A DNA stretch of 64,000 nt, taken from contig CM026397.1 of the NCBI GenBank assembly GCA_014843695.1, positions 45,884,571 to 45,948,570 on the forward strand, in the 5' to 3' direction. Source of the stretch: Archivesica marissinica (taxonomy: Eukaryota; Mollusca; Bivalvia; Venerida; Vesicomyidae). A model generated the notes under the pieces. The model was not told the origin of the DNA. It did no database searches and saw nothing but the letters and a program-made list of their open reading frames with translations. This document shows, in pieces, positions 1 to 58,096 of this stretch (its first letter is position 1; the number at the start of each line of letters is the position of its first letter). The position numbers and the translations under genes were made by a program.

Positions 1-2846
1 GATATGGTGAGACAGTGTGTATTTATTGTAGTAATGTATGTAGATATGGTGCGATAGTGTGTATATCTTGTAGTAATGAATGTAGATATGGTGAGATAGT
101 GGATATATATTTTAGTAATGTATGTAGATATGGTGAGATGGTGGATATATATTGTAGTAATGTATGTAGATATGGTGAGATAGTGGATATATATTTTAGT
201 AATGTATGTAGATATGGTGAGATAGTGGATTTATATTGTAGTAATGTATGTACATATGGTGAGATAGTGGATATATGTTGTAGTAATGTATGTAGATATG
301 GTGATATAGTGTGTAGATCTTGTAGTAATGAATGTATATATGGTGAAATAGTGTGTAAATCGTGTAGTAATGAATGTAGATATTGTGAGATAGTGTATAT
401 ATATATATTAGTAATGTACGTAGATATGGTGAGATAGTGGATATATATTGTAGTATTATATATAGATATGGTGAGATAGTGTGTATATCTTGTAGTAATG
501 TACGTAGATATGGTGAGATAGTGTGTATATCTTGTAGTAATATACGTAGATATGGTGAGACAGTGTGTAGTTATTGTAGTAATGTAATGTATGTAGATAT
601 CGTGAAATACTGTGTATATCTTGTAGTAATGTATGTAAATATGGTGAGATAGTGGATTTATATTGTTGTAATGTACGTAGATATGGTGAGATAGTGTGTA
701 TATCTTGTAGTAATGTATGTAGATATGGTGAGATAGTGTGTATATCTTGTAGTAATGTACGTAGATATGGTGAGATAGTGTGTATATCTTGTAGTAATGT
801 ACGTAGATATGGTGAGATACTGTGTATATCTTGTAGTAATGTATGTACATATGGTGAGATAGTGGATATATCTTGTAGTAATGTATGTAGATATGGTGAT
901 ATAATGTGTAGATCTTGTAGTAATGAATGTATATATGGTGAAATAGTGTGTAGATCTTGTAGTAATGAATGTAGATATTGTGAGATAGTGTATATATATA
1001 TATATATTAGTAATGTATGTAGATATGGTGAGATAGTGGATTTATATTGGTGTAATATATGTAGATATGGTGAGATAGTGTGTATATCTTGTAGTAATGT
1101 ACGTAGATATGGTGAGATAGTGTGTATATCTTGTAGTAATGTATGTAGATATGGTGAGACAGTGTGTAGTTATTGTAGTAATGTATGTAGATATGGTGCG
1201 ATAGTGTGTATATCTTGTAGTAATGTACGTAGATATAGTGAGATAGTGTGTATATCTTGTAGTAATGTATGTAGATATGGTGAGACAGTGTGTAGTTATT
1301 GTAGTAATGTATGTAGATATGGTGAGATAGTGTGTATATCTTGTAGTAATGAATGTAGATATGGTGAGATAGTGAATAATTTCTTGTAGTAATGTATGTA
1401 GATATGGTGAGATACTGTGTATATCTTGTAGTAATGAATGTAGATATGGTGAGATAGTGAATAATTTGTTGTAGTAATGTATGTAGATATGGTGAGATAC
1501 TGTGTATATCTTGTATTAATGTACGTAAATATGGTGAGATAGTGGATATATCTTGTAGTAATGTATGTAGATATGGTGATATTGTGTGTAGATCTTGTAG
1601 TAATGAATGTAGATATAGTGAGATAGTGTATATATCTATTAGTAATGTATGTAGATATGGTGAGATAGTGGATATATATTGTAGTAATATATGTAGATAT
1701 GGTGAGATAGTGTGTATATCTTGTAGTAATGTACGTAGATATGGTGCGATAGTGTATATATCTTGTAGTAATGTACGTAGATATGGTGAGATACTGTGTA
1801 TATCTTGTAGTAATGTATGTAGATATGGTGAGATAGTGGATATATCTTGTAGTAATGTATGTAGATATGGTGATATAGTGTGTAGATCTTGTAGTAATGA
1901 ATGTATATATGGTGAAATAGTGTGTAGATCTTGTAGTAATGAATGTAGATATTGTGAGATAGTGTATATATATATATATATTAGTAATGTATGTAGATAT
2001 GGTGAGATAGTGGATATATATTGGTGTAATATATGTAGATATGGTGAGATAGTGTGTATATCTTGTAGTAATGTACGTAGATATGGTGAGATAGTGTGTA
2101 TATCTTGTAGTAATGTATGTAGATATGGTGAGACAGTGTGTAGTTATTGTAGTAATGTATGTAGATATGGTGCGATATTGTGTATATCTTGTAGTAATGT
2201 ACGTAGCTATAGTGAGATAGTGTGTATATCTTGTAGTAATGTATGTAGATATGGTGAGACAGTGTGTAGTTATTGTAGTAATGTATGTAGATATGGTGCG
2301 ATAGTGTGTATATCTTGTAGTAATGATGTAGATATGGTGAGATAGTGAATAATTTCTTGTAGTAATGTATGTAGATATGGTGAGATACTGTGTATATCTT
2401 GTAGTAATGAATGTAGATATGGTGAGATAGTGAATAATTTGTTGTAGTAATGTATGTAGATATGGTGAGATACTGTGTATATCTTGTATTAATGTACGTA
2501 AATATGGTGAGATAGTGGATATATCTTGTAGTAATGTATGTAGATATGGTGATATAGTGTGTAGATCTTGTAGTAATGAATGTATATATGGTGAAATAGT
2601 GTGTAGATCTTGTAGTAATGAATGTAGATATAGTGAGATGGTGTATATATCTATTAGTAATGTATGTAGATATGGTGAGATAGTGGATTTATTGTTGTAA
2701 TATATGTAGATATGGTGAGATAGTGTGTATATCTTGTAGTAATGTATGTATATATGGTGGGACAGTGTGTGTATATTGTAGCAATGTATGTAGATATTGT
2801 GAGATAGTGTGAGTATATCTTGTAGTATTGTATGTAGATATGGTGA
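1..2846. repeat. 42-bp minisatellite array (copy A)
   Basis: About 68 tandem units of 42 bp, consensus TAGATATGGTGAGATAGTGT followed by GTATATCTTGTAGTAATGTA and two bases (CG or TG). Variants include GATAGTGGATATAT, GACAGTGTGTAGTTAT, TGTTGTAGTAATG and an expanded TATATATA unit. Some multi-unit blocks recur, so there is higher-order structure. Because 42 is a multiple of three and the unit lacks stops in one frame on each strand, long frames appear on both strands (14-residue repeat CISCSNVCRYGEIV on plus, an HTISPYLHTLLQD-type repeat on minus). These are a consequence of the repeat and are not supported as genes. Confidence 0.97.
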
Positions 2847-2991
2847 ACATACATACATTTGAGACCTTCGTAAATTTATATATAGGATTTAGAAAGCAGA
2901 TTATTAAAAGCAGTGCAATATTATAATATAGTACTGTGGATGAGGATATGCATACATCGTGTGCGGGAATACAATATCTAATGTTATGTTC

Positions 2992-3102
2992 TTTACGTTT
3001 ATTTATCGTCGCCAGCGGTTGCCCATATGAGCGACGCCTCCTGAAGAGATTAGTCATTTTAGATATTTGGAGGATAGTGCGATGATACAGACAGAGACCC
3101 AA
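2992..3102 (-). repeat. Dispersed ~115-bp retroposon tail (copy 1)
   Basis: Member of a dispersed family with five copies in the window: 2992-3102 (-), 24007-24127 (-), 38888-39006 (+), 47362-47472 (-) and 59789-59910 (-). Read 5' to 3' it runs from AGACTCTGG through TGTATCATTGCACTATCC and GGAGGCGTCGCTCATATGGG to GCGACGATAAATAAACGTAAA. The copy at 38888 is followed by a CA-repeat tail. An AATAAA-like 3' end plus a simple tail suggests the 3' end of a SINE or LINE. The family was not recognised. Confidence 0.75.
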
Positions 3103-3279
3103 TCCAGAGTCTGATATGGTTTTTTTACGTGCAAAATAGCAATACCGTTTCTAACTAGTTTTCTATTTATAGTAACGTATGTCATTGTTATTTATAGCAA
3201 TACGTTCTGATTGGAAGAATATAAACAGCCTGTTCCAACTAGTTTTCTATTTATAGTAACTTAGTTCATTTATAGGATA

Positions 3280-5660
3280 GGTCTATACGTGTCTAGGCAT
3301 GATTTCGTGACGTCAACGACTGACTGATGCGATATTCCGGAAACTATAAACACGCTCAGTCCTTTGCGACTTAAGTATCGGATGCCAAAGTGTAAGGATA
3401 TTTAGGTACTTATACGTATTATATAATAGTATCGCGGCCATCAACATCTTACGATCGAAATGACGATAATAAATATAATCATTTTATCGGTATAATGAGA
3501 ATGTGTAGAGGGAGGTAATTGTGTACGGACATTAGCTACGTAATTAGAACTAAGGGTAGATACGGACATAAATGGAGCGACACACCCCGAGTCGAATGGA
3601 CCATTAATAAGAGAGATAGTGTTTTCCCGCCATTTTTATCCTCCATTTTGAAAATCGTAGGCGCGGAACGTATAATCGTTTAGTACGATTATCGAAACCC
3701 CCGGATAGATAGGACCTATAATAAAGCTTATATAACGAATTTATATCGGTACTTACGGTTTTTTGGATCACTACTTCCGGTATGAGGTCGGACCATTAAT
3801 TGAGTCGCGGATTCGTCATTGTCTCTTCGAGATCTTTCCGACGATACCAAACACGGCCAGTTTCCTCGAACGTTCATTTTTCTTCAAACTTATTTACGAT
3901 TAAAGGGAGATAATCAGTATTATAGATATATCGAATAATGATAGATCAAAATGAAGGGTAGCGTCGGACTCGTGACGACGATACGCGTATATTAGAACTA
4001 ACGTATAGTAACGTTACTTACGTTTAAATATTTTTCATTTTCATAAATGGGACTTTAAGGATATATAAAATCTTTAAACCTCTATATCTCGAAAACTACT
4101 CGCCGTATAAATAAAGGAAAGATATCGTCGGATCGGTCTCGCCGAGCTACGTCGAATTATACAGATTTATACGCTCTAACGCCGAGTAGAAAAATTGATG
4201 ACTTCAGATTCGTAGGCCAAGTCTTTTAGCTCCATTATAAACAGCATAGATCGTGCTCATACGCGGCGCTACCCCTATATCTAATAATCGAATTATGGAT
4301 ATCCGTATAAATACTGATGTGCAGGCCCGGGCCTTTTGGCCTAATGGCAGCTACGCGCCTGTATGGTTCTGGAATTGGAGCGTATTACACTATCCTGCAA
4401 CAAAAATGAATTAACGAATGCACTTTTAGAGGCGTCATCCCGATTAACAAGGGGGTCGATAATAAATAAATACGGAAGGCTAACAGATGAGCATATTTTA
4501 TTGGAAAGCAACATTTTCCTGTTTCATATAGCGACCACACAGTTGTCACACCAGTCTGGACGTATACATTCATAAGCCATGTTCGAACCCTAATCTCCGA
4601 GCGACGTCGTCTATCAAATAACGCATGTATTACAGCCGCTATTGCCATAAAATAGGCTTCGCAGCAATGCATGAAACTGATAGGCGTATTATGATAACAA
4701 CATTGACTATTAGCACGGGGAGACATACGCATGTTGCAACCCTACAACGGATATGTACAACTCTAATAAAGGATGCGCAATGTAACACCGATCACGTGAT
4801 TATCATTATCGCACTGAACAGGGGATGTAATTAGTTTATACAAATTTATGTTAGCACGATCGCGAAACAACTATTTGACATTTAACATTTCTTAATTACA
4901 TTTACGGATTTCCGCGTCGATTTGTAGTAATTCGTAATTAATTACCCGTCTTACCTTTAGATTTTAACGGCTGGCATTGACAAACGTGGTATGTAAACGT
5001 ATTAATTACTTAAATTTGCTTAGAATCATGAAACAATTTGCCATGCGATGTTTATAATTACGTGTGTCAGTTTGGCCTAGAAATTTCTCTCGCATTCCCA
5101 GATAAATTGTTAAGATTATTTAGGGCCAACATACGGAAGGCCTGACAGGCATACCTCATACCGCTTGGATTCAGTTAATTATGTTAAAGGGCATGGAACA
5201 CCACGTATTAACGATTAGACATTTATATTAATCGTTGTATCACTCTATACGATAAAATACGTGTACTTTATTCGTGTATCATATACGCTATGGCTATGAG
5301 TTGTCTAGTGACATGCCCCTCTAAAACGTACATTACGGATTATTAATAATTTATCGCATTTTTATGGAATTATACGTAACGAGGTAAGATATATATTATT
5401 CATTTTCGCTAAAGTACATAGGTTAAGTTTGTATATAGCGTATAATTAGGATTTCTTACGCGATAAAAACGTACGCCGAGTTTGAATAATATAATGAACT
5501 TACCCGTTGACAGCATGGTTGAAGTTCGTGAAGCTTATGAAACGATTGAGGCCTAAGTCCGTTGTAAACGGTCTATATTTATAGAAGCGTTCGTAATCGT
5601 TATTTATGGATCGGTTCGTAGTCGATATTTATAGAATGGTACGCGATCGCTATTTATAAA
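3280..5660. other. CpG-rich intergenic segment without a supported gene
   Basis: No gene supported. Open frames here (around 4363-4834) are short, overlap on both strands and show no recognisable motif. The segment is unusually CpG-rich for AT-rich DNA: the 60-base line at 3961 has 9 CpG, the line at 3661 has 7, and lines at 3781, 4081 and 4141 about 6 each. Two to three would be expected at this base composition. Just upstream, AACTAGTTTTCTATTTATAG occurs twice (3149 and 3236). Copy B is at 47650-50030. Confidence 0.6.
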
Positions 5661-5666
5661 GCTATT

Positions 5667-5776
5667 ATCAATAGGCTCTATAGTGACGCGTATACTAAAA
5701 AAGCAAAGAGCTCGGTAGTTGCGCGATACGTCATCAATAGGCTCTATAGTGACGCGTATACTAAAAAAGCAAAGAG
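5667..5776. repeat. Spaced 44-bp direct repeat
   Basis: The 44-bp sequence starting ATCAATAGGCTCTATAGTGA is present at 5667-5710 and again at 5733-5776 without change, separated by 22 bases. Upstream (5570-5660) is a looser run of TATTTATAGA / TATTTATGGA motifs spaced about 30 bp apart. The frame spanning both on the minus strand is a by-product. Copy B is at 50037-50146. Confidence 0.85.
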
Positions 5777-5960
5777 ACGACTTTACTACTGTGAGACGCA
5801 AAAGTTACATATAATGGCCAGCATCGATTACTGCTAATACAACAAACCTTATCAAATGTAATTGAAGCCACAACGAGCGCTATGACAACATGACTGAAAT
5901 GACCCAGATAGTGAGTGTAAGCATACATGTTTACAACTGTTTCGACTATATATACAGGAT

Positions 5961-6190
5961 GTCCGATTAGCGCAGTGGGGCTGTCCGATTAGCGCAGTGG
6001 TTAGCGCGCTCGCTTCTCACCAATGCAACCCTGGTTCGAGATGTATGTGAGATGGTACGATGGTCGCCATGGTGGGTTTTCTCCGGGTACTCCGGTTTCC
6101 TCCCACACGAATGACCACATTTACGCTTCCATCCGCGCCAACGAGAGTGATTAATACAAGTTGTTAAAACTTACCACAAAAAAAAAAAAA
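5961..6190 (+). mobile_element. tRNA-derived SINE with poly(A) tail
   Basis: A tRNA-like head starts at 5983 (GTCCGATTAGCGCAGTGGTT, matching a pol III A box; B-box-like GGTTCGAGATG). A conserved core follows (GGTGGGTTTTCTCCGGG, CTCCGGTTTCCTCCCAC) of the type widespread in molluscan SINEs. The element ends in a 13-A run at 6178-6190. The first 22 bases of the head are duplicated at 5961-5982 with a slight difference, perhaps from template switching. No clear target duplication was found. Copy B is at 50331-50560. Confidence 0.8.
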
Positions 6191-6245
6191 CAAAAACAAA
6201 CACCAACACCAAAAGACCATATATTATCATGACTAGGCTAGCCTG

Positions 6246-6413
6246 GGAACAGGCGTCGATATATGTTGCCTGGTCAGTCAAATACATATATGTTAACACC
6301 GATACTATTAATTGGGCCGTATTGAGTTCGGAACAGGGGTCAATATATTTTGCCTGGTCAGTCAAATAAATATATTTTAACACCGATACTATTAATTCGG
6401 CCGTATTGAGTTT
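6246..6413. repeat. 84-bp tandem duplication
   Basis: Two adjacent 84-bp units (6246-6329 and 6330-6413) beginning GGAACAGG and ending GTATTGAGTT, with a handful of substitutions. Both contain GCCTGGTCAGTCAAATA and AACACCGATACTATTAATT. The 70-residue minus frame here is an artefact of the duplication. Copy B is at 50616-50783. Confidence 0.85.
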
Positions 6414-7261
6414 CTGATTATATTAACGCCTGGGGAAACTGGACGGATTATCCGTGTAATTATTGACTAGCATTAATCCTATTAATAGGCCTATTAGCAC
6501 GTGACTTAATTAATGACGTACTTGAATCGAAAGCGAGGCACTGGAATGATCGTGTATAATCGTGCCTGTTCGGCGATTTCCGATATAATTCCGTTTCTAT
6601 ATTTAGCGATATTATATTGTAGAGAAGAGTTGTCGTTCTTCAAATACATATAAATGAGGGTGTAAGTAGATGGCGCTACGATCGGAAATCCAGTTTCCCC
6701 AGGCTGTCATTTTACCAGAAGTTAAAAAGTCAAAAAACGACAGACTGGCACCCAGGTTATGACTAGACTAACATTGATCTAGTTTTGTGATTTCAATAAT
6801 CTCAGAAATTGATACATTTCAGGTATGGCAGACCTGTAAATACAAACATCTACGCTCCCCCAGAATTTAAATGAAACTATATTTATATGTCCGTGTATAA
6901 TTGACCCCACGATATGGTCACATAGATTACATAGCCATAATATATAGTAGTACAAGCTTCCGGTAGTGTCATGGCGTAGTTGTTTATGTTTGTCAGTGGG
7001 AATTTCTTGGATTTGACTATGTAAATACTGAGCAAACCTTCTATAAATAAGATATATGTGAACAGGAGAAACTTGTGTACCGGATTGGATACTATGAAGG
7101 TGACATTTTGACATTACGTTGATTTAATCAGCACAATTTCTGATATTTTACATGTGCTATGTTCCATTGAACTGATATTGCAGTAGGTAAAATTGAATAC
7201 CACCCACGCTGCATTTTTCGGACAGTACACTGCACAGAACAAATAACGTTTCGTGTGTATC
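6414..7261. other. Intergenic, nothing recognised
   Basis: No gene, RNA or element recognised. The 111-residue minus-strand frame at 6779-7114 has no recognisable domain and no conserved features, and is most likely chance. Copy B is at 50784-51631. Confidence 0.4.
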
Positions 7262-8045
7262 ATGAGCTATGCTCCAGCAAGTGGTGATAAAAAAAGTGAA
7301 GCCACATCACCTCTCGATATTAGCGAACTGAAAAAAAATCAATGTTATTATCAACCAACAGTGATCACGAGATGGCAGAAGGCTGCAATAATAACCTTAG
7401 CGAGGAACATGTCCTAAACATTGCCGAGATCCTTAAATCAACATTTGATAGCCAAATGACATCAATGGTGAGTAGCATTGTTAGTGGCGCACTCGGCGGT
7501 CTAGAACAGAAGGTTGCGACATTAGAAGGAAAAAACAAGGCTGTACATGATTGTGTTTCACAGCTAGAAAAACGTGTCGCCAACCTGGAAAACCAAGGGG
7601 ACAGATCAAACCAATACAGTCGGCGTAACTCGCTACGTGTCTCAGGTATGAACGAAGACGCAGGTGAATCAGTCGACGATTTGGTCACGACCTTGTTCAC
7701 GGAACGTCAGCTTGGACGAAATCGATAACATGCACAGGCTTCATAGACCGAACTCTGATGATGGAATGTCAACTCGTCCCAGGGACATTATCATTAAATT
7801 CGCGACATACCGCTCCCACCAAAAAGTTTATACATTGCGATAGTCGCTTAAAACAGCAGTATAGCGTGTTCACCAACGAAGAACTAACCAAACGGCGCGG
7901 CGAAGTGTTCTTCAACCTACTGCGTCTTGTGAAAGATAACTCCGTCAAAGGAACCTGGACTGCAAATGGGATCATCCTTGTGAAGGACAATAGAGATGTC
8001 GTTCACATATGTGATGACCTGGTTAAACTTAAACGTACACCTTAA
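7262..8045 (+). pseudogene. LINE ORF1-like protein, disrupted (copy A)
   Basis: Remnant of a nucleic-acid-binding ORF1-type protein of a non-LTR retrotransposon. It opens with ATG at 7262 (MSYAPASGDKK...). A one-base shift near 7340 moves it to the frame running to 7728, where a heptad-like coiled coil (LEQKVATLEGKNKAVHDCVS, LEKRVANLENQ) precedes the typical RNSLRVSGMNEDAG motif. Near 7715 the frame shifts again (RPRDIIIKFATYRSHQKVY, then an in-frame TAG at about 7847) and returns at LTKRRGEVFFNLLRLVKDNS and TWTANGIILVKDN. The order coiled coil, RNxLRVxGM, PRDIIIKF, LTKRR, DGIILVKDN is that of Transposase_22/L1-ORF1-like proteins. No ORF2 follows within 1 kb. Several frame breaks make it inactive. 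Confidence 0.8.
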
Positions 8046-8378
8046 CATTCGGCAGTGAAGTATACATTCACACTAGTCAGTGACTCGGAACAGTAGTACA
8101 TTGGCCATCGATTTACCTGTCTAGTTATTATGTACAGTATTTGTGCTTGATACAATAATGGCATATGTACAACGTATGCCTTTTGTATGACTCGTCGCAA
8201 TATGTATGCTTAAAACACGGTCGTAACGTCATACCTTTATACTTGCAGTCCATTATTAATATTGGACTGCTGTCAAAAGGCCAGAGTATTATATTAAATC
8301 CTAAGCGTACATGTATGAAATAAACACTTTTAATTAGTAGGATCTTGTTATATAAGTGTGTGTTTTAAGTAAGATATA

Positions 8379-8556
8379 CAGTCAAACCTGTCATAAGCAG
8401 CCAGCCAAGGAAATCACAGAAAGTGGCTGCTTAGCACAGGTGGCTGCTTAATAGAGGGCACATGTATAATAAAACAGGATATTGGGAATCTGGAAACTGG
8501 CTGCTTAATACAGGTTGGCTGCTTAATAGAGGTGACCACTAACACAGGTTTGAGTG
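8379..8556. mobile_element. MITE with TIRs and TA target duplication
   Basis: A 178-bp element bounded by inverted repeats CAGTCAAACCTGT at the left and ACAGGTTTGAGTG at the right, flanked on both sides by TA (8377-8378 and 8557-8558). Inside are repeated GTGGCTGCTTA / TGGCTGCTTAATAGAGGT motifs. It has no coding capacity. TA duplication suggests mobilisation by a Tc1/mariner-type transposase, by inference. Copy B is at 52749-52926. Confidence 0.85.
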
Positions 8557-8558
8557 TA

Positions 8559-9256
8559 AACCTCAAACGGATACAATATGTAAAATATTGGTACTGTCTT
8601 CGGCTTATATCCTATACATAAAACGAATCTATTAGTTATTAAGACGTAGTGTGAAACCACTGTTTTCGCGCGTCCGAAAATCACGCATTGATTAACAAAG
8701 GCCTGTGCACAGTATTTAGTGTCGAACCACAAGTTCATGTAACACTTACATATCTGCTTAAATATTTTACATTGATACTGCCTGCATAAGGAACTACCAA
8801 TACTGCCCGGGCCTCGAACCTCATGTACACGTAACACTATATCGATGCTTAACTTATCTCCATTTTCTGTGGGCAAGCATGCATAGCGTACCCAATAATA
8901 CACACAATGTATTACAATATATGCACGACCTGCGTGGTTGTTGGGAAACAAACACAAAAGCGATTCATTAGAAGGGAGTTAATCGTACTATTCTCCACGC
9001 AACTGTAATATTGTTTCAACGTGTCTCGTAATCATAATATAACATAATATGTATTTGCATTAAGCACATTTATGGCCAATACACATTATGAAGTTTGACA
9101 AATAGTGAAATACATGATACAGTTTTCTGAGAAGTTTGAATATATCAGTTAATAATTAGTAGATGCAAAAGTACAATAAGTGACACGTGAAATATAACTA
9201 CTGCACTTAGGTCAAACATACAAGGCCATAATTATGCCAGACGCATGGTAAATTTT
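8559..9256. other. Intergenic, nothing recognised
   Basis: A 144-residue minus-strand frame (8523-8957) begins inside the MITE and has no recognisable domain. It is treated as chance. Nothing else seen. Copy B is at 52929-53626. Confidence 0.4.
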
Positions 9257-9735
9257 GCACTGAAAAGTACAAGTCATGCTCGGTCATTTTTGATGGATAT
9301 GAAGATGGGCCATCAACGAATGACACTACACACAGGAGACGAATAGGCGGTCAAATTGTGGCTGAAATTAAAATTGAACTGGATATGATAATGAGTTCAA
9401 AGAAACAGCAGGTACTTCTAAACAAAAGGAACACAAACAGAAGTTCATAAACTTATTGTCAGGTTATTTGGCGGAAGCTGGGGTGGATGTGAGTAATGCC
9501 AAGTCAGATGCTGACTACTTAATAGTGAAATCAGCTCTAGATGCTTCGCTAGACCAGAACACAATTGTCGTTGGTGAAGACACTGATGTATTAGTAATGT
9601 TGTGTTACCATGCCAGAAACATAGAGAATAGCATGCATCTCATTTCAGAAGGAAACAAACACAAATGTTGCAGTGTTAGGGGTTCAAGAACATCTTGGCC
9701 CTGAACTATGTAACAACATACTTTTTCTGCATGCA
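9257..9735 (+). pseudogene. PIN/NYN-like nuclease-family fragment (copy A)
   Basis: Partial protein of a family common in invertebrate genomes, often in or near mobile DNA. Visible in order are SVIFDGYEDGPSTNDTTHRR, a serine/lysine stretch, FINLLSGYLAEAGVDV, KSDADYLIVKSALDAS, IVVGEDTDVLVMLCYHAR and, after a further shift, LGPELCNNILFLHA. The spaced acidic residues (FDGY, SDAD, EDTD) fit a PIN-like nuclease fold; this is inference from pattern. A frameshift near 9425 and stops after 9704 break it, and both ends are missing. The longest intact frame covers 9456-9704. Confidence 0.5.
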
Positions 9736-10212
9736 AAAATGTGAAAGTGCAAATTGATTTTATTGTGTCATATTACACAGGCTTTTGACATAACAAAACC
9801 ATTATTCCCATTTCTGTTCAAATTTTCCCTACCCCAATGTCCTATTTGTACTGTACTCTAATGAGCGCTTAGTGAAGGCCTTTTTTTCAAAAGGATTTTG
9901 GATAAAGTGATGAAAATTAAACATTTGTTTTACATCACTATTCAATTCTTAAACTAGAAAACATAAACCTTTGGGAAAATAATATGATGTACACCATATC
10001 AATTTCATAGAGTTTATCATGCGTGGTGGATTGGTATAAAGGTAATTGTGCAACTCTGAATTTTGTATGTTATAGCACGTTATTACATTGAATCTATTTA
10101 TAGTGGATAGATCATTATATTTCGTAACCAGTTCTCATCATAGTTGAGACGTGCACATATTCCCAGCTACTGACCTGAAATGACGAAAAATATTTAACAG
10201 TTAGAAACCGAA
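9736..10212. other. Intergenic, nothing recognised
   Basis: AT-rich sequence with no supported frame, RNA or repeat. Copy B is at 54106-54582. Confidence 0.4.
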
Positions 10213-11353
10213 AATGAAGGTGAAGAAACTACAGCGATACAAAGAGAAAACATTAATTGAGAGCAATGTCACTACTGATTTAGATACCAGTCATTCGAGT
10301 CCATTCGATATCAAACAGAAACAAAAATAATGTACAACAGAAAAAGAAGAAACTAACCACAAGCATGTAACAGAAATAGTATTAGTAACTGGATTGAAAT
10401 GATGTTTGTAATATGGATTGGAATGTTCAACTCTTCTTCTGCTATCTTGCTTTCAAGCCGAATTCCTTCTTTCTATACAAACAAATAGTGAATATGTGTT
10501 TATACTATACAATGATGTATGGTCTAAAAATATTGTAATTTAACTAATTTATATCATATGTTTACATATGTATATATTAACTATATTATGAACAATAAAC
10601 GGGCTACTCCTTGTAGCTCAATATTGTAAAAAGGAAAGAAAGGTCGCAAATGATCACAACAGAGGACTAAGAAAACAAACACTATGATGCATAATCAAGG
10701 AAACATTCAGTGACTCGGTACATGTGTGCCATAAAACATAAACATAGCATCTTGGAGAGTACCTCTTTGAAAAATAAAAGGAAATCGACAGCATAGAAAG
10801 GCAGTTTGGCACATTAGAAGAGCAACTAAAGGAACATGTAATGGACAATGAGAAATTAACACTGAACTTGTAAATATTGAGTGGAGAGCAAATGGTAAAA
10901 TTAACGGTCTTGAACAATACAGTAAAATATACAACATACGGATATGCGGATTAACAGAATCAAAGCAAGAAACTGTAATCCAAACAGAAAAGAAAGTCGT
11001 CAAGAAATTAAAGCTAGCATATCCCAGATGTAATTGAAGTTAATGACATAGAACTTGCTCACAAACTGGGTAACGCAAATTCAAATAGAATACCATGGCA
11101 AATAATAGTGAAACTAGTGGATAAGATAGCGATAGTAAATATTATGATGAAATCTATTGGAGAACACGGGGTGTATATTAGCGTAGATATAACAACACTG
11201 AACAAACATGTGCTCACAAGAAGCAAACATATGATGCAGATATGTACTGCTTGGTCAATAGACGGGCATTTGTTCTACAAGAATGCAATGCATTGCATAT
11301 GGGTGATGATTACCAGATATGGATTGCTCTTTCGTGGTCAACATATTGACTAG
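10213..11353 (+). pseudogene. Second LINE ORF1-like remnant, disrupted (copy A)
   Basis: A different, more decayed ORF1-type gene. A short start region may be the lysine-rich frame at 10213-10330 (MKVKKLQRYKEK...). The recognisable part begins near 10780 with a glutamate/lysine-rich coiled-coil-like stretch, then INGLEQYSKIYNIRICGLTE (the counterpart of RNNLRVxGI in L1-type ORF1). After a frameshift near 11010 come DVIEVNDIELAHKLGNANS, RIPWQIIVKL, VYISVDITTLNKHVLTRSK and WSIDGHLFYKN. The open frame from 11108 to 11353 is the tail. Gaps and stops exclude function. Confidence 0.65.
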
Positions 11354-11518
11354 TCCGAGTGCACAAAAACACCTATTGGTTAATTTAATAACACCAGTAA
11401 CATCACATGTTGGAAGTTTAACCCTGTAAATGTAATACAAATGTAGTACTATTCCGTTCAGCATTATAGCCATTGTTGGATAAATGCTTCGCTGGACACA
11501 GTTTTATTTCATTTAAGC

Positions 11519-12180: not shown

Positions 12181-12208
12181 CACCATGGTATCTTAGACCG
12201 AGTAAAAT

Positions 12209-14640: not shown

Positions 14641-14771
14641 TGAGGTAACTCTGTGTATGAAAACGTCCTTGATATTAAACTTGGTACTGTATGTGAACAT
14701 TACACTTATCTATACGGGTAGTTTTAATTTAAACTCACAAAAACTCCAAGGCAATATCCTGAAAGCTATGT

Positions 14772-44336: not shown

Positions 44337-47216
44337 GAGATAGTGTGTATATCTTGTAGTAATGAATGTAGATATGGTGAGACAGTGTGTATTTATTGTA
44401 GTAATGTATGTAGATATGGTGCGATAGTGTGTATATCTTGTAGTAATGAATGTAGATATGGTGAGATAGTGGATATATATTTTAGTAATGTATGTAGATA
44501 TGGTGAGATGGTGGATATATATTGTAGTAATGTATGTAGATATGGTGAGATAGTGGATATATATTTTAGTAATGTATGTAGATATGGTGAGATAGTGGAT
44601 TTATATTGTAGTAATGTATGTACATATGGTGAGATAGTGGATATATGTTGTAGTAATGTATGTAGATATGGTGATATAGTGTGTAGATCTTGTAGTAATG
44701 AATGTATATATGGTGAAATAGTGTGTAAATCGTGTAGTAATGAATGTAGATATTGTGAGATAGTGTATATATATATATTAGTAATGTACGTAGATATGGT
44801 GAGATAGTGGATATATATTGTAGTATTATATATAGATATGGTGAGATAGTGTGTATATCTTGTAGTAATGTACGTAGATATGGTGAGATAGTGTGTATAT
44901 CTTGTAGTAATATACGTAGATATGGTGAGACAGTGTGTAGTTATTGTAGTAATGTAATGTATGTAGATATCGTGAAATACTGTGTATATCTTGTAGTAAT
45001 GTATGTAAATATGGTGAGATAGTGGATTTATATTGTTGTAATGTACGTAGATATGGTGAGATAGTGTGTATATCTTGTAGTAATGTATGTAGATATGGTG
45101 AGATAGTGTGTATATCTTGTAGTAATGTACGTAGATATGGTGAGATAGTGTGTATATCTTGTAGTAATGTACGTAGATATGGTGAGATACTGTGTATATC
45201 TTGTAGTAATGTATGTACATATGGTGAGATAGTGGATATATCTTGTAGTAATGTATGTAGATATGGTGATATAATGTGTAGATCTTGTAGTAATGAATGT
45301 ATATATGGTGAAATAGTGTGTAGATCTTGTAGTAATGAATGTAGATATTGTGAGATAGTGTATATATATATATATATTAGTAATGTATGTAGATATGGTG
45401 AGATAGTGGATTTATATTGGTGTAATATATGTAGATATGGTGAGATAGTGTGTATATCTTGTAGTAATGTACGTAGATATGGTGAGATAGTGTGTATATC
45501 TTGTAGTAATGTATGTAGATATGGTGAGACAGTGTGTAGTTATTGTAGTAATGTATGTAGATATGGTGCGATAGTGTGTATATCTTGTAGTAATGTACGT
45601 AGATATAGTGAGATAGTGTGTATATCTTGTAGTAATGTATGTAGATATGGTGAGACAGTGTGTAGTTATTGTAGTAATGTATGTAGATATGGTGAGATAG
45701 TGTGTATATCTTGTAGTAATGAATGTAGATATGGTGAGATAGTGAATAATTTCTTGTAGTAATGTATGTAGATATGGTGAGATACTGTGTATATCTTGTA
45801 GTAATGAATGTAGATATGGTGAGATAGTGAATAATTTGTTGTAGTAATGTATGTAGATATGGTGAGATACTGTGTATATCTTGTATTAATGTACGTAAAT
45901 ATGGTGAGATAGTGGATATATCTTGTAGTAATGTATGTAGATATGGTGATATTGTGTGTAGATCTTGTAGTAATGAATGTAGATATAGTGAGATAGTGTA
46001 TATATCTATTAGTAATGTATGTAGATATGGTGAGATAGTGGATATATATTGTAGTAATATATGTAGATATGGTGAGATAGTGTGTATATCTTGTAGTAAT
46101 GTACGTAGATATGGTGCGATAGTGTATATATCTTGTAGTAATGTACGTAGATATGGTGAGATACTGTGTATATCTTGTAGTAATGTATGTAGATATGGTG
46201 AGATAGTGGATATATCTTGTAGTAATGTATGTAGATATGGTGATATAGTGTGTAGATCTTGTAGTAATGAATGTATATATGGTGAAATAGTGTGTAGATC
46301 TTGTAGTAATGAATGTAGATATTGTGAGATAGTGTATATATATATATATATTAGTAATGTATGTAGATATGGTGAGATAGTGGATATATATTGGTGTAAT
46401 ATATGTAGATATGGTGAGATAGTGTGTATATCTTGTAGTAATGTACGTAGATATGGTGAGATAGTGTGTATATCTTGTAGTAATGTATGTAGATATGGTG
46501 AGACAGTGTGTAGTTATTGTAGTAATGTATGTAGATATGGTGCGATATTGTGTATATCTTGTAGTAATGTACGTAGCTATAGTGAGATAGTGTGTATATC
46601 TTGTAGTAATGTATGTAGATATGGTGAGACAGTGTGTAGTTATTGTAGTAATGTATGTAGATATGGTGCGATAGTGTGTATATCTTGTAGTAATGATGTA
46701 GATATGGTGAGATAGTGAATAATTTCTTGTAGTAATGTATGTAGATATGGTGAGATACTGTGTATATCTTGTAGTAATGAATGTAGATATGGTGAGATAG
46801 TGAATAATTTGTTGTAGTAATGTATGTAGATATGGTGAGATACTGTGTATATCTTGTATTAATGTACGTAAATATGGTGAGATAGTGGATATATCTTGTA
46901 GTAATGTATGTAGATATGGTGATATAGTGTGTAGATCTTGTAGTAATGAATGTATATATGGTGAAATAGTGTGTAGATCTTGTAGTAATGAATGTAGATA
47001 TAGTGAGATGGTGTATATATCTATTAGTAATGTATGTAGATATGGTGAGATAGTGGATTTATTGTTGTAATATATGTAGATATGGTGAGATAGTGTGTAT
47101 ATCTTGTAGTAATGTATGTATATATGGTGGGACAGTGTGTGTATATTGTAGCAATGTATGTAGATATTGTGAGATAGTGTGAGTATATCTTGTAGTATTG
47201 TATGTAGATATGGTGA
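44337..47216. repeat. 42-bp minisatellite array (copy B)
   Basis: Same array as 1-2846, here with its left edge visible. It starts at GAGATAGTGTGTATATC directly after an A-rich stretch (44326-44335). The right edge is at TATGGTGAACATACATAC. Confidence 0.97.
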
Positions 47217-47361
47217 ACATACATACATTTGAGACCTTCGTAAATTTATATATAGGATTTAGAAAGCAGATTATTAAAAGCAGTGCAATATTATAATATA
47301 GTACTGTGGATGAGGATATGCATACATCGTGTGCGGGAATACAATATCTAATGTTATGTTC

Positions 47362-47472
47362 TTTACGTTTATTTATCGTCGCCAGCGGTTGCCCATATGA
47401 GCGACGCCTCCTGAAGAGATTAGTCATTTTAGATATTTGGAGGATAGTGCGATGATACAGACAGAGACCCAA
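47362..47472 (-). repeat. Dispersed ~115-bp retroposon tail (block 1 copy B)
   Basis: Duplicate of 2992-3102. Confidence 0.75.
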
Positions 47473-50330
47473 TCCAGAGTCTGATATGGTTTTTTTACGT
47501 GCAAAATAGCAATACCGTTTCTAACTAGTTTTCTATTTATAGTAACGTATGTCATTGTTATTTATAGCAATACGTTCTGATTGGAAGAATATAAACAGCC
47601 TGTTCCAACTAGTTTTCTATTTATAGTAACTTAGTTCATTTATAGGATAGGTCTATACGTGTCTAGGCATGATTTCGTGACGTCAACGACTGACTGATGC
47701 GATATTCCGGAAACTATAAACACGCTCAGTCCTTTGCGACTTAAGTATCGGATGCCAAAGTGTAAGGATATTTAGGTACTTATACGTATTATATAATAGT
47801 ATCGCGGCCATCAACATCTTACGATCGAAATGACGATAATAAATATAATCATTTTATCGGTATAATGAGAATGTGTAGAGGGAGGTAATTGTGTACGGAC
47901 ATTAGCTACGTAATTAGAACTAAGGGTAGATACGGACATAAATGGAGCGACACACCCCGAGTCGAATGGACCATTAATAAGAGAGATAGTGTTTTCCCGC
48001 CATTTTTATCCTCCATTTTGAAAATCGTAGGCGCGGAACGTATAATCGTTTAGTACGATTATCGAAACCCCCGGATAGATAGGACCTATAATAAAGCTTA
48101 TATAACGAATTTATATCGGTACTTACGGTTTTTTGGATCACTACTTCCGGTATGAGGTCGGACCATTAATTGAGTCGCGGATTCGTCATTGTCTCTTCGA
48201 GATCTTTCCGACGATACCAAACACGGCCAGTTTCCTCGAACGTTCATTTTTCTTCAAACTTATTTACGATTAAAGGGAGATAATCAGTATTATAGATATA
48301 TCGAATAATGATAGATCAAAATGAAGGGTAGCGTCGGACTCGTGACGACGATACGCGTATATTAGAACTAACGTATAGTAACGTTACTTACGTTTAAATA
48401 TTTTTCATTTTCATAAATGGGACTTTAAGGATATATAAAATCTTTAAACCTCTATATCTCGAAAACTACTCGCCGTATAAATAAAGGAAAGATATCGTCG
48501 GATCGGTCTCGCCGAGCTACGTCGAATTATACAGATTTATACGCTCTAACGCCGAGTAGAAAAATTGATGACTTCAGATTCGTAGGCCAAGTCTTTTAGC
48601 TCCATTATAAACAGCATAGATCGTGCTCATACGCGGCGCTACCCCTATATCTAATAATCGAATTATGGATATCCGTATAAATACTGATGTGCAGGCCCGG
48701 GCCTTTTGGCCTAATGGCAGCTACGCGCCTGTATGGTTCTGGAATTGGAGCGTATTACACTATCCTGCAACAAAAATGAATTAACGAATGCACTTTTAGA
48801 GGCGTCATCCCGATTAACAAGGGGGTCGATAATAAATAAATACGGAAGGCTAACAGATGAGCATATTTTATTGGAAAGCAACATTTTCCTGTTTCATATA
48901 GCGACCACACAGTTGTCACACCAGTCTGGACGTATACATTCATAAGCCATGTTCGAACCCTAATCTCCGAGCGACGTCGTCTATCAAATAACGCATGTAT
49001 TACAGCCGCTATTGCCATAAAATAGGCTTCGCAGCAATGCATGAAACTGATAGGCGTATTATGATAACAACATTGACTATTAGCACGGGGAGACATACGC
49101 ATGTTGCAACCCTACAACGGATATGTACAACTCTAATAAAGGATGCGCAATGTAACACCGATCACGTGATTATCATTATCGCACTGAACAGGGGATGTAA
49201 TTAGTTTATACAAATTTATGTTAGCACGATCGCGAAACAACTATTTGACATTTAACATTTCTTAATTACATTTACGGATTTCCGCGTCGATTTGTAGTAA
49301 TTCGTAATTAATTACCCGTCTTACCTTTAGATTTTAACGGCTGGCATTGACAAACGTGGTATGTAAACGTATTAATTACTTAAATTTGCTTAGAATCATG
49401 AAACAATTTGCCATGCGATGTTTATAATTACGTGTGTCAGTTTGGCCTAGAAATTTCTCTCGCATTCCCAGATAAATTGTTAAGATTATTTAGGGCCAAC
49501 ATACGGAAGGCCTGACAGGCATACCTCATACCGCTTGGATTCAGTTAATTATGTTAAAGGGCATGGAACACCACGTATTAACGATTAGACATTTATATTA
49601 ATCGTTGTATCACTCTATACGATAAAATACGTGTACTTTATTCGTGTATCATATACGCTATGGCTATGAGTTGTCTAGTGACATGCCCCTCTAAAACGTA
49701 CATTACGGATTATTAATAATTTATCGCATTTTTATGGAATTATACGTAACGAGGTAAGATATATATTATTCATTTTCGCTAAAGTACATAGGTTAAGTTT
49801 GTATATAGCGTATAATTAGGATTTCTTACGCGATAAAAACGTACGCCGAGTTTGAATAATATAATGAACTTACCCGTTGACAGCATGGTTGAAGTTCGTG
49901 AAGCTTATGAAACGATTGAGGCCTAAGTCCGTTGTAAACGGTCTATATTTATAGAAGCGTTCGTAATCGTTATTTATGGATCGGTTCGTAGTCGATATTT
50001 ATAGAATGGTACGCGATCGCTATTTATAAAGCTATTATCAATAGGCTCTATAGTGACGCGTATACTAAAAAAGCAAAGAGCTCGGTAGTTGCGCGATACG
50101 TCATCAATAGGCTCTATAGTGACGCGTATACTAAAAAAGCAAAGAGACGACTTTACTACTGTGAGACGCAAAAGTTACATATAATGGCCAGCATCGATTA
50201 CTGCTAATACAACAAACCTTATCAAATGTAATTGAAGCCACAACGAGCGCTATGACAACATGACTGAAATGACCCAGATAGTGAGTGTAAGCATACATGT
50301 TTACAACTGTTTCGACTATATATACAGGAT

Positions 50331-50560
50331 GTCCGATTAGCGCAGTGGGGCTGTCCGATTAGCGCAGTGGTTAGCGCGCTCGCTTCTCACCAATGCAACC
50401 CTGGTTCGAGATGTATGTGAGATGGTACGATGGTCGCCATGGTGGGTTTTCTCCGGGTACTCCGGTTTCCTCCCACACGAATGACCACATTTACGCTTCC
50501 ATCCGCGCCAACGAGAGTGATTAATACAAGTTGTTAAAACTTACCACAAAAAAAAAAAAA
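50331..50560 (+). mobile_element. tRNA-derived SINE (block 1 copy B)
   Basis: Duplicate of 5961-6190, including the duplicated head and the A-run. Confidence 0.8.
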
Positions 50561-51631
50561 CAAAAACAAACACCAACACCAAAAGACCATATATTATCAT
50601 GACTAGGCTAGCCTGGGAACAGGCGTCGATATATGTTGCCTGGTCAGTCAAATACATATATGTTAACACCGATACTATTAATTGGGCCGTATTGAGTTCG
50701 GAACAGGGGTCAATATATTTTGCCTGGTCAGTCAAATAAATATATTTTAACACCGATACTATTAATTCGGCCGTATTGAGTTTCTGATTATATTAACGCC
50801 TGGGGAAACTGGACGGATTATCCGTGTAATTATTGACTAGCATTAATCCTATTAATAGGCCTATTAGCACGTGACTTAATTAATGACGTACTTGAATCGA
50901 AAGCGAGGCACTGGAATGATCGTGTATAATCGTGCCTGTTCGGCGATTTCCGATATAATTCCGTTTCTATATTTAGCGATATTATATTGTAGAGAAGAGT
51001 TGTCGTTCTTCAAATACATATAAATGAGGGTGTAAGTAGATGGCGCTACGATCGGAAATCCAGTTTCCCCAGGCTGTCATTTTACCAGAAGTTAAAAAGT
51101 CAAAAAACGACAGACTGGCACCCAGGTTATGACTAGACTAACATTGATCTAGTTTTGTGATTTCAATAATCTCAGAAATTGATACATTTCAGGTATGGCA
51201 GACCTGTAAATACAAACATCTACGCTCCCCCAGAATTTAAATGAAACTATATTTATATGTCCGTGTATAATTGACCCCACGATATGGTCACATAGATTAC
51301 ATAGCCATAATATATAGTAGTACAAGCTTCCGGTAGTGTCATGGCGTAGTTGTTTATGTTTGTCAGTGGGAATTTCTTGGATTTGACTATGTAAATACTG
51401 AGCAAACCTTCTATAAATAAGATATATGTGAACAGGAGAAACTTGTGTACCGGATTGGATACTATGAAGGTGACATTTTGACATTACGTTGATTTAATCA
51501 GCACAATTTCTGATATTTTACATGTGCTATGTTCCATTGAACTGATATTGCAGTAGGTAAAATTGAATACCACCCACGCTGCATTTTTCGGACAGTACAC
51601 TGCACAGAACAAATAACGTTTCGTGTGTATC

Positions 51632-52415
51632 ATGAGCTATGCTCCAGCAAGTGGTGATAAAAAAAGTGAAGCCACATCACCTCTCGATATTAGCGAACTG
51701 AAAAAAAATCAATGTTATTATCAACCAACAGTGATCACGAGATGGCAGAAGGCTGCAATAATAACCTTAGCGAGGAACATGTCCTAAACATTGCCGAGAT
51801 CCTTAAATCAACATTTGATAGCCAAATGACATCAATGGTGAGTAGCATTGTTAGTGGCGCACTCGGCGGTCTAGAACAGAAGGTTGCGACATTAGAAGGA
51901 AAAAACAAGGCTGTACATGATTGTGTTTCACAGCTAGAAAAACGTGTCGCCAACCTGGAAAACCAAGGGGACAGATCAAACCAATACAGTCGGCGTAACT
52001 CGCTACGTGTCTCAGGTATGAACGAAGACGCAGGTGAATCAGTCGACGATTTGGTCACGACCTTGTTCACGGAACGTCAGCTTGGACGAAATCGATAACA
52101 TGCACAGGCTTCATAGACCGAACTCTGATGATGGAATGTCAACTCGTCCCAGGGACATTATCATTAAATTCGCGACATACCGCTCCCACCAAAAAGTTTA
52201 TACATTGCGATAGTCGCTTAAAACAGCAGTATAGCGTGTTCACCAACGAAGAACTAACCAAACGGCGCGGCGAAGTGTTCTTCAACCTACTGCGTCTTGT
52301 GAAAGATAACTCCGTCAAAGGAACCTGGACTGCAAATGGGATCATCCTTGTGAAGGACAATAGAGATGTCGTTCACATATGTGATGACCTGGTTAAACTT
52401 AAACGTACACCTTAA
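51632..52415 (+). pseudogene. LINE ORF1-like protein, disrupted (copy B)
   Basis: Same dead ORF1-like gene as 7262-8045, with the same frame breaks and identical translated segments, at +44370. Confidence 0.8.
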
Positions 52416-52748
52416 CATTCGGCAGTGAAGTATACATTCACACTAGTCAGTGACTCGGAACAGTAGTACATTGGCCATCGATTTACCTGTCTAGTTATTA
52501 TGTACAGTATTTGTGCTTGATACAATAATGGCATATGTACAACGTATGCCTTTTGTATGACTCGTCGCAATATGTATGCTTAAAACACGGTCGTAACGTC
52601 ATACCTTTATACTTGCAGTCCATTATTAATATTGGACTGCTGTCAAAAGGCCAGAGTATTATATTAAATCCTAAGCGTACATGTATGAAATAAACACTTT
52701 TAATTAGTAGGATCTTGTTATATAAGTGTGTGTTTTAAGTAAGATATA

Positions 52749-52926
52749 CAGTCAAACCTGTCATAAGCAGCCAGCCAAGGAAATCACAGAAAGTGGCTGC
52801 TTAGCACAGGTGGCTGCTTAATAGAGGGCACATGTATAATAAAACAGGATATTGGGAATCTGGAAACTGGCTGCTTAATACAGGTTGGCTGCTTAATAGA
52901 GGTGACCACTAACACAGGTTTGAGTG
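52749..52926. mobile_element. TA-flanked MITE (block 1 copy B)
   Basis: Duplicate of 8379-8556. Confidence 0.85.
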
Positions 52927-53626
52927 TAAACCTCAAACGGATACAATATGTAAAATATTGGTACTGTCTTCGGCTTATATCCTATACATAAAACGAATCT
53001 ATTAGTTATTAAGACGTAGTGTGAAACCACTGTTTTCGCGCGTCCGAAAATCACGCATTGATTAACAAAGGCCTGTGCACAGTATTTAGTGTCGAACCAC
53101 AAGTTCATGTAACACTTACATATCTGCTTAAATATTTTACATTGATACTGCCTGCATAAGGAACTACCAATACTGCCCGGGCCTCGAACCTCATGTACAC
53201 GTAACACTATATCGATGCTTAACTTATCTCCATTTTCTGTGGGCAAGCATGCATAGCGTACCCAATAATACACACAATGTATTACAATATATGCACGACC
53301 TGCGTGGTTGTTGGGAAACAAACACAAAAGCGATTCATTAGAAGGGAGTTAATCGTACTATTCTCCACGCAACTGTAATATTGTTTCAACGTGTCTCGTA
53401 ATCATAATATAACATAATATGTATTTGCATTAAGCACATTTATGGCCAATACACATTATGAAGTTTGACAAATAGTGAAATACATGATACAGTTTTCTGA
53501 GAAGTTTGAATATATCAGTTAATAATTAGTAGATGCAAAAGTACAATAAGTGACACGTGAAATATAACTACTGCACTTAGGTCAAACATACAAGGCCATA
53601 ATTATGCCAGACGCATGGTAAATTTT

Positions 53627-54105
53627 GCACTGAAAAGTACAAGTCATGCTCGGTCATTTTTGATGGATATGAAGATGGGCCATCAACGAATGACACTACA
53701 CACAGGAGACGAATAGGCGGTCAAATTGTGGCTGAAATTAAAATTGAACTGGATATGATAATGAGTTCAAAGAAACAGCAGGTACTTCTAAACAAAAGGA
53801 ACACAAACAGAAGTTCATAAACTTATTGTCAGGTTATTTGGCGGAAGCTGGGGTGGATGTGAGTAATGCCAAGTCAGATGCTGACTACTTAATAGTGAAA
53901 TCAGCTCTAGATGCTTCGCTAGACCAGAACACAATTGTCGTTGGTGAAGACACTGATGTATTAGTAATGTTGTGTTACCATGCCAGAAACATAGAGAATA
54001 GCATGCATCTCATTTCAGAAGGAAACAAACACAAATGTTGCAGTGTTAGGGGTTCAAGAACATCTTGGCCCTGAACTATGTAACAACATACTTTTTCTGC
54101 ATGCA
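53627..54105 (+). pseudogene. PIN/NYN-like nuclease-family fragment (copy B)
   Basis: Identical duplicate of 9257-9735, with the same frameshift and truncations. Confidence 0.5.
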
Positions 54106-54582
54106 AAAATGTGAAAGTGCAAATTGATTTTATTGTGTCATATTACACAGGCTTTTGACATAACAAAACCATTATTCCCATTTCTGTTCAAATTTTCCCT
54201 ACCCCAATGTCCTATTTGTACTGTACTCTAATGAGCGCTTAGTGAAGGCCTTTTTTTCAAAAGGATTTTGGATAAAGTGATGAAAATTAAACATTTGTTT
54301 TACATCACTATTCAATTCTTAAACTAGAAAACATAAACCTTTGGGAAAATAATATGATGTACACCATATCAATTTCATAGAGTTTATCATGCGTGGTGGA
54401 TTGGTATAAAGGTAATTGTGCAACTCTGAATTTTGTATGTTATAGCACGTTATTACATTGAATCTATTTATAGTGGATAGATCATTATATTTCGTAACCA
54501 GTTCTCATCATAGTTGAGACGTGCACATATTCCCAGCTACTGACCTGAAATGACGAAAAATATTTAACAGTTAGAAACCGAA

Positions 54583-55723
54583 AATGAAGGTGAAGAAACT
54601 ACAGCGATACAAAGAGAAAACATTAATTGAGAGCAATGTCACTACTGATTTAGATACCAGTCATTCGAGTCCATTCGATATCAAACAGAAACAAAAATAA
54701 TGTACAACAGAAAAAGAAGAAACTAACCACAAGCATGTAACAGAAATAGTATTAGTAACTGGATTGAAATGATGTTTGTAATATGGATTGGAATGTTCAA
54801 CTCTTCTTCTGCTATCTTGCTTTCAAGCCGAATTCCTTCTTTCTATACAAACAAATAGTGAATATGTGTTTATACTATACAATGATGTATGGTCTAAAAA
54901 TATTGTAATTTAACTAATTTATATCATATGTTTACATATGTATATATTAACTATATTATGAACAATAAACGGGCTACTCCTTGTAGCTCAATATTGTAAA
55001 AAGGAAAGAAAGGTCGCAAATGATCACAACAGAGGACTAAGAAAACAAACACTATGATGCATAATCAAGGAAACATTCAGTGACTCGGTACATGTGTGCC
55101 ATAAAACATAAACATAGCATCTTGGAGAGTACCTCTTTGAAAAATAAAAGGAAATCGACAGCATAGAAAGGCAGTTTGGCACATTAGAAGAGCAACTAAA
55201 GGAACATGTAATGGACAATGAGAAATTAACACTGAACTTGTAAATATTGAGTGGAGAGCAAATGGTAAAATTAACGGTCTTGAACAATACAGTAAAATAT
55301 ACAACATACGGATATGCGGATTAACAGAATCAAAGCAAGAAACTGTAATCCAAACAGAAAAGAAAGTCGTCAAGAAATTAAAGCTAGCATATCCCAGATG
55401 TAATTGAAGTTAATGACATAGAACTTGCTCACAAACTGGGTAACGCAAATTCAAATAGAATACCATGGCAAATAATAGTGAAACTAGTGGATAAGATAGC
55501 GATAGTAAATATTATGATGAAATCTATTGGAGAACACGGGGTGTATATTAGCGTAGATATAACAACACTGAACAAACATGTGCTCACAAGAAGCAAACAT
55601 ATGATGCAGATATGTACTGCTTGGTCAATAGACGGGCATTTGTTCTACAAGAATGCAATGCATTGCATATGGGTGATGATTACCAGATATGGATTGCTCT
55701 TTCGTGGTCAACATATTGACTAG
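54583..55723 (+). pseudogene. Second LINE ORF1-like remnant, disrupted (copy B)
   Basis: Duplicate of 10213-11353 at +44370, with identical frames. Confidence 0.65.
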
Positions 55724-56443
55724 TCCGAGTGCACAAAAACACCTATTGGTTAATTTAATAACACCAGTAACATCACATGTTGGAAGTTTAACCCTGTAAA
55801 TGTAATACAAATGTAGTACTATTCCGTTCAGCATTATAGCCATTGTTGGATAAATGCTTCGCTGGACACAGTTTTATTTCATTTAAGCCATGTTGCAATA
55901 ATGAGGCTAACATATGCACGTCTCTTGATTCTGTTGTTGTTGGTTGATTTTGGTTTACTAAATACTATATGTAAACCGAACCAAATGAGCGTGACTGTAT
56001 TATTGCAAGATGACTCAAATTATAATTGTTAGTTCATTTAATTTACTATATACATATACCATTTGTAACAACATCAACCAACAATTATATTTTCAAGTCA
56101 TGTTGCAATAATAATGACATGGATGTCCATGTATGATCATTTGGTTCGGTTACTAATAAAACAAAATCAACTAACAATTATATGCGTGCAACATCACTAT
56201 GTAAAAGAATATGCATAAGCGCTCGGCTTGTTTTCCAATTCATTTCAAATAGTTTGTGTATTGCAGTTTGTACATAATTATAATGTATGAATTGAATAAA
56301 AAATGGTTAAACTACGATTACCTAAATTGAAGTATGGTGTGTGCTATTTCACCAAGCAAAAGATAAAATAGATATCAATCAAGGAAGATATATTTATTTA
56401 ACATTACACAAGATTTCAAATTTAAATAGCAAAGTTGTTTAGT

Positions 56444-56690
56444 GTGGCGTCCGTGGTCCAATGGTAGAGCGTCGGATTTGGAATCGAACGGTCCGGGTTC
56501 GATACTCAGTCAGGCCACGTATGTAGTGTCAATGAATCAACACCATTAAACACCATGGTATCTTAGACCGAGTAAAATGGCCTCAGTGGTCGAGTGGTTA
56601 GGGTCGCTGATTTGTATACCACTGTAACCTGTCATCACTGATTGTCAAGGGTTCGAGCCCCGCTCAGGCCGTGTCTCATTTATATGAAAA
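56444..56690 (+). mobile_element. Two tRNA-like SINE heads (block 1 copy B)
   Basis: Duplicates of 12074-12180 and 12209-12320. Confidence 0.7.
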
Positions 56691-57829
56691 ATTGTTCTGA
56701 CGTAGTTGTCGCAATGACGATTTCAGCATGCAAGTATGTCCACATACAAATGTCATGTTATACCAATACTACGCCTGGACAAAATAACCTGAATTACATT
56801 ATGTTATTATGTCGTATAATATATATTCTTTATGTATCCTCCAATATTGAAGAGCATGCATACATTTTACATATACATTATCAGAACATTTACATCGGTG
56901 AAATATTCTACAATTATATACATAAACATTAAGTAACAGAAATAAACATTTATTTTTATATACTTAGTACATAACAAATTATGTATAAGCGCAACCGAGT
57001 ATGTACAGGTTGTATTATTACAACATTTTGACGTATTTGAAAGAAGTTAATCATTCAAAGTTGATTTTAAATAAGGGCAGTTGTATTATCTAGTAAAACT
57101 AGCGCCCGGATATGTAACATACATGTGTGCATAACTATGGGCGCCGGTTTGCTATTTATTCAGTATCCATAATTCGATATATGGATAGTGTGGCGTCCCC
57201 CCTCGTGGATAGCCATAATTCCAAGCTATTATGGACAACAAGTATTCAATAAGAGGTCTAATATAAATATAGTACTTATAGAGACCTTCTATTTAATTAT
57301 GACTTGGGTTTTCGCATGATATGTATTCTCTTCCGGGCCCGCTCTTTAGTTTAAACATTATTTATTTCAGTATGTGTACATGTAATCAAGAAATGAAAAG
57401 TTTACATATAATTTAACAGCAGTAGACTGAAAGGGATTAGAACGAAAGAAAACTTATATAGTTCTTCTAATGTTAAAACGTGTAACCCAAACCATTTGTA
57501 TGTTCATGCTATGTATTGTATCTGTACGTGTATGACATATGTACTATTGGTTTGCAATCATATATGGTTAAATAAATAAATACACAATTCTTGGAATGGT
57601 GGTTACCAATATGCTTGTTACAGGTTACTAGAGTAATAGCTTGATCGTGCATAAATAAGTAGAGGTGGGTGGAAAGGTTTACCAGTGTTGAGTGGAATGG
57701 TCATAGTTCGATATCTTTTCAATGTGGGAGTGTAGAGTTTCTGCAGCAGAAATAACATGATCAACAATTATATGTAAACTGGCAACGTCAGCAAAGTGGT
57801 GCACTTGAGAACCAGTATTGTCGACGATG

Positions 57830-58096
57830 TCATTGATAAACACCAGGAAATAGAGTGGACCACGAATAGATCATGGGGGGGGGACTCCTGCACTTACTGT
57901 TCACCGATTGGGTACCCGGTAGAACAACGGATTGTCGTCTGTTATAGAGAAACCTAGTTAAATAAACAGCCATCCAGTCCAATATTTTTAACTTGAAGAT
58001 GAGACCTTTATGCCACACTTTACCAAAGGCCTTACTATTATCAAAGAATACAGTTCTCACTTCAGGTCCAGCCTTACATAAGGTATTGAACAGGTA
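57830..58096 (-). pseudogene. LINE reverse transcriptase fragment (copy B, truncated)
   Basis: Copy B retains only the part matching 13460-13726. After 58096 the sequence changes to unrelated DNA, so the upstream RT fragments of copy A are absent. Confidence 0.8.

Follow-up and report, generated by a model that had tools for sequence, protein, structure and literature searches.

To understand why the same sequence appears twice on one scaffold, we analyzed a stretch of 64,000 bases (here called the window; G+C content of 34.7%, all letters counted), in which a block of 13.7 kb and the sequence behind it recur in direct order. The question raised by this locus is whether both copies belong to the genome or whether one locus was written twice during assembly. 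Rather than an old tandem duplication, the preliminary description had favored one locus that was assembled twice where two contigs overlap and beyond which the haplotypes diverge, and this view was supported by the geometry of the copies, the jump in divergence, the collinearity of the diverged sequence, and the private insertions. Judged from the sequence itself, it is very probable that a contig overlap was left uncollapsed in the scaffold and that two haplotypes of one locus follow it.

Identical block, gap, and tandem arrays

String comparison revealed that positions 1 to 13726 (copy A) and 44371 to 58096 (copy B), both on the plus strand, are identical at an offset of 44,370, with 0 differences in 13,726 columns, which bears out the repeat without differences that had been claimed and places the 95% upper bound on divergence within the block at 2.2e-4. 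The exact match stops at 13727/58097, and 30,644 bases (13727 to 44370) lie between the copies. Base 1 of the window is already within the block and within a minisatellite, and copy A therefore begins before the window does.

This 42-bp minisatellite was delimited by TRF at 1 to 2846 in copy A (plus strand, ∼67 degenerate copies) and at 44337 to 47216 in copy B (plus strand), and its sameness across the copies, as described earlier, held over the shared part. Because the block is identical, none of its four tandem loci, the 67-copy minisatellite among them, differs between the copies. In contrast, both of the TRF-listed arrays in the alignable diverged part (described below) changed copy number: a 76-bp array at 26478 to 26630 has two copies in A versus one in B, and a 20-bp array has 2.5 copies at 26982 to 27030 in A versus 5.4 at 62799 to 62907 in B. 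This difference in behavior between the two parts supports an assembly artefact.

The only run of N in the window is a gap of exactly 1000 N (43184 to 44183), which is presumably of nominal length because its size is round. Copy B starts to match 187 bases after the beginning of the right contig at 44184; such a perfect block so close to the start of a contig also supports an artefact of assembly. The counterpart in copy A of these initial 187 bases (44184 to 44370, plus strand), if any, would lie to the left of the window, and a search with 44184 to 44336 against 1 to 43183 gave a best hit no better than E = 0.74. If the 187 bases also match the left flank of copy A beyond the window, the overlap amounts to 13,913 bases. 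Within the window, the copies are not linked by contiguous sequence, and their junction falls in the 1000-N gap. The remainder of the left contig (28140 to 43183, plus strand) ends within a 44-bp tandem array (42254 to 43183), and we predict that its counterpart occurs in the right contig beyond the window. Within this remainder, 20/40-bp units are also repeated in tandem over 5.2 kb (29401 to 34652; ∼130 copies of 40 bp), and more diverged units of this kind occur at ∼34897 to 35295; a counterpart of the array in the right contig would likewise fall beyond the window.

Diverged collinear sequence and private insertions

Beyond the identical block, the two versions continue in the same order and orientation. 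In copy A, positions 21454 to 22368 (plus strand) pair with 58686 to 59600 without gaps and with 5 substitutions in 915 columns, and positions 23818 to 28139 (plus strand) pair with 59601 to 64000 with 65 substitutions in 4,052 columns and 15 indels; among the latter are two private insertions and two changes in tandem arrays. The continuation of copy B (58686 to 64000, plus strand) thus pairs with 21454 to 28139 and runs to the end of the window, which is all that interrupts the collinearity. For this sequence, the preliminary description had estimated a difference of about 2 percent, and the figure is refined here to 0.55% in 21454 to 22368, 1.6% in 23818 to 28139, and 1.4% overall (70 substitutions in 4,967 columns). 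Two side observations concern this region and its surroundings. A dispersed repeat of ∼120 to 150 bp occurs at 2984 to 3133, 23999 to 24148, 38888 to 39014 (minus strand), 47354 to 47503, and 59782 to 59931, and is 89 to 94% alike between non-corresponding places. In addition, an imperfect palindrome, with 58 of 67 bases matching its own reverse complement, is present in both versions (21786 to 21852 and 59018 to 59084) and could form a hairpin.

The abrupt jump from 0 to ∼1.4% divergence, with collinearity maintained to the window end, is a further argument for an artefact. Even at the lowest rate seen, that of 21454 to 22368, the identical block should contain 75 differences, and 0 were observed. 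A true tandem segmental duplication from one event is expected to show one divergence level along the copy. The copies resemble such a duplication in their direct order and high identity; unlike it, they show two divergence classes that adjoin sharply, and their junction sits in a gap. With 0 substitutions in 13,726 columns and 70 in 4,967, the probability that all 70 would miss the identical columns is ∼10^-40 (log10 P of ∼-40, assuming one rate and independent sites), which rules out one true duplication of uniform age under one rate.

Version A carries two private insertions and version B carries one, and for each of the three the other version has the empty site, as would be seen between two haplotypes. 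The first, only in A, is a DNA transposon of 1,441 bp (22376 to 23816, plus strand), which we take to be hAT-like from the hallmarks of that superfamily; it has 11-bp inverted ends (CAGGGCGTTCA) and is flanked by an 8-bp target duplication in which 7 of the 8 bases agree. Its empty site in B lies at 59600 to 59607. An open reading frame (ORF) within the element (23387 to 23788) matches the PF25431 zinc finger (E = 9.4e-11), and a transposase domain was not found in the two ORFs of the element that were scanned. The second, also only in A, is a short retroposon-like insertion of 134 bp with a (CATT)n end (26732 to 26865, plus strand), flanked by a 10-bp target duplication (TAGAAAGGAC), for which B holds the unduplicated empty site. 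The third, only in B, is a SINE-like insertion of 268 bp (62355 to 62622, plus strand) with the target duplication TATTAACCC and an empty site in A at 26662 to 26670. Its tRNA-like promoter boxes were recognised by eye and had no tool match; the tRNA scan (ARAGORN) gave 0 tRNA genes, and the Rfam scan gave 0 matches at gathering scores. Both sides have therefore gained insertions independently, as haplotypes or old paralogs would. The non-LTR, hAT-like, and SINE-like elements together would point to an animal genome.

Such insertions and substitutions would also occur between old paralogs. The main competitor of an assembly error is a true tandem duplication of ∼43 kb, of an age that allowed ∼1.4% divergence, in which the left part was recently re-homogenised over a tract of at least 13.7 kb by gene conversion or unequal exchange. 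We regard this as unlikely, although the two-sided insertions and substitutions would suit old paralogs and the geometry is compatible, the order of left flank, X, gap, X', and right flank being the same for a true tandem duplication. Its further support comes from the ORF at 24728 to 25279 in A (60510 to 61052 in B), around which the substitutions cluster (20 of the 65 within 24568 to 25067). The two versions of this ORF differ by a 9-base in-frame indel and by 15 changed codons, 14 of which are non-synonymous and one of which becomes a stop in B. The ORF looks unconstrained in at least one version. For the ORF at 27892 to 28311, the part covered by B has a single changed codon, in which the residue is also changed. 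A protein search with the ORF at 24728 to 25279 yielded a single outside relative, P0121, which aligns over 78% of the query with 65% identity. Polarised against P0121, the 14 differing aligned positions comprise five at which A matches, five at which B matches, three at which neither does, and one gap in P0121; the two versions differ from P0121 at different sites, as diverging paralogs might. Along the ORF, agreement with P0121 passes back and forth between the two versions, as might be seen in a mosaic. Neither the codon changes nor the polarisation separates alleles from paralogs.

Keeping both copies as real would mean that one very long and very recent event homogenised at least 13.7 kb, including the 67-copy minisatellite, and stopped at a 7.7-kb structural difference, a scenario to which we give little credence. 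It requires a tract of this length in which not one base or minisatellite unit differs, and it requires that the duplication junction coincide with the assembly gap, whereas an assembly artefact requires neither.

Edge of the identical block

At the right edge of the block, 7,727 bases found only in A (13727 to 21453) are replaced by 589 bp found only in B (58097 to 58685), and the two segments share no match better than 13 bases. As read by eye, a minus-strand reverse transcriptase frame is continuous across 13726/13727 in A, with its 5' continuation recognised within 13727 to 21453; in B, the frame is broken at 58096/58097, the left edge of the replacement. Because the frame is unbroken in A and broken in B, A seems to keep the older state and B seems to be rearranged, either because a real deletion was accompanied by the gain of new sequence or because the sequence was misjoined there. 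The A-only segment also contains a second reverse transcriptase ORF (14763 to 15929, plus strand; PF00078, E = 2.8e-23), for which the protein search gave 4,394 matches, the best among the 120 listed being 98% identical and located on a 1.8-kb ENA contig. Close to its start, the B-only segment has a 19-bp repeat in 2.2 copies, and the sequence of the segment is found nowhere else in the window. That identity ends at the 7.7-kb difference was given no weight, because the first difference is by definition where an identical block stops.

Two further explanations are very improbable. A very recent true duplication limited to the 13.7-kb block, with the diverged blocks stemming from a separate older event, would account for the 0 differences in 13,726 columns; however, the diverged blocks follow the identical one in the same order and orientation in both copies, and this register would then be due to chance. 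Similarly, there is only a slight probability that the right contig is chimeric, with 58096 wrongly joined to 58097 and the identical block belonging only to copy A. The reverse transcriptase frame, intact at 13726/13727 and broken at 58096/58097, would fit such a join, as would the 589 unrelated bases in place of 7.7 kb; however, a real rearranged allele would give the same picture, and the collinearity from 58686 onward suggests that both sides of the join come from one region. Chance identity is ruled out by 13.7 kb of exact match, and a single dispersed element is ruled out as the cause by the mixed content of the block, in which a minisatellite and part of a reverse transcriptase occur together with other dispersed repeats, and by the collinear sequence behind it.

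Proposed assembly model and its consequences

False duplications of the kind proposed here have been described in other assemblies. Homotype false duplication at contig boundaries is illustrated in the Vertebrate Genomes Project paper (PMC8081667, Extended Data Fig. 5b), heterotype false duplication is described in PMC8081667 and PMC9516828, the former giving it as the presence of both haplotype contigs in the primary assembly, and Extended Data Fig. 6c of PMC8081667 gives an example in which the two are combined. The locus analyzed here, a duplicated pair on one scaffold with an assembly gap between its members, has the arrangement of homotype or heterotype false duplication. It resembles the homotype form in its tandem order and intervening gap, and probably also in having an identical overlap that reaches the edge of a contig, and differs from it in that 29.5 kb more of the left contig separates the overlap from the gap. 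At least 13.7 kb is a plausible length for a long read. The likeness to the heterotype form lies in two versions on one scaffold with ∼1 to 2% divergence, polymorphic insertions, and a gap between them; these collinear versions carry the variants typical of haplotypes (substitutions, indels, and three private insertions), which old paralogs could give as well. The combined example would be alike in that homotype and heterotype duplication meet at a single contig boundary. According to a figure legend of PMC8081667, assembly graphs branch at the transition from identical to heterozygous sequence. The start of a contig is therefore not randomly placed, and it is unsurprising to see perfect identity give way to divergence there. 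The cited work on false duplications also mentions true allele-specific tandem duplications with haploid-level depth, and therefore half depth alone would not be proof.

We infer that both copies derive from a single locus and that a branch in the assembly graph was the cause. The left contig would follow one haplotype through the locus and stop at 43183, within the 44-bp tandem array. The right contig would start at 44184 in sequence common to both haplotypes, or in one haplotype read twice, would repeat the left contig exactly for at least 13.7 kb, and would follow the other haplotype from 58097 on. The two contigs would then have been scaffolded head to tail, with the nominal gap of 1000 N inserted. 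The identical block would accordingly be the overlap at the graph branch (homotype false duplication), and the part with 1.4% divergence would be two alleles in tandem (heterotype false duplication). Of the right contig, 19,817 bases lie within the window, and 18,693 of them can be aligned to the left contig. Such a model needs either a homozygous run or the use of the reads of one haplotype twice, in that 13.7 kb without a difference stands beside 1.4% divergence; a homozygous 13.7-kb run adjoining such divergence is possible. The replacement of 7.7 kb by 589 bp at 58096/58097 is not predicted by an assembly artefact and fits it less neatly.

If the duplication is indeed an artefact, the genes, repeats, and variants of this region would appear twice in any count, and a tandem paralog that does not exist might be described. 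For such alleles, a passage of PMC7545148 advises that a purging tool be used for their removal after HiFi assembly. As an artefact, the locus matters for curation and would be a clear example, recognizable from sequence alone, of an assembly error that combines a contig overlap with haplotype divergence.
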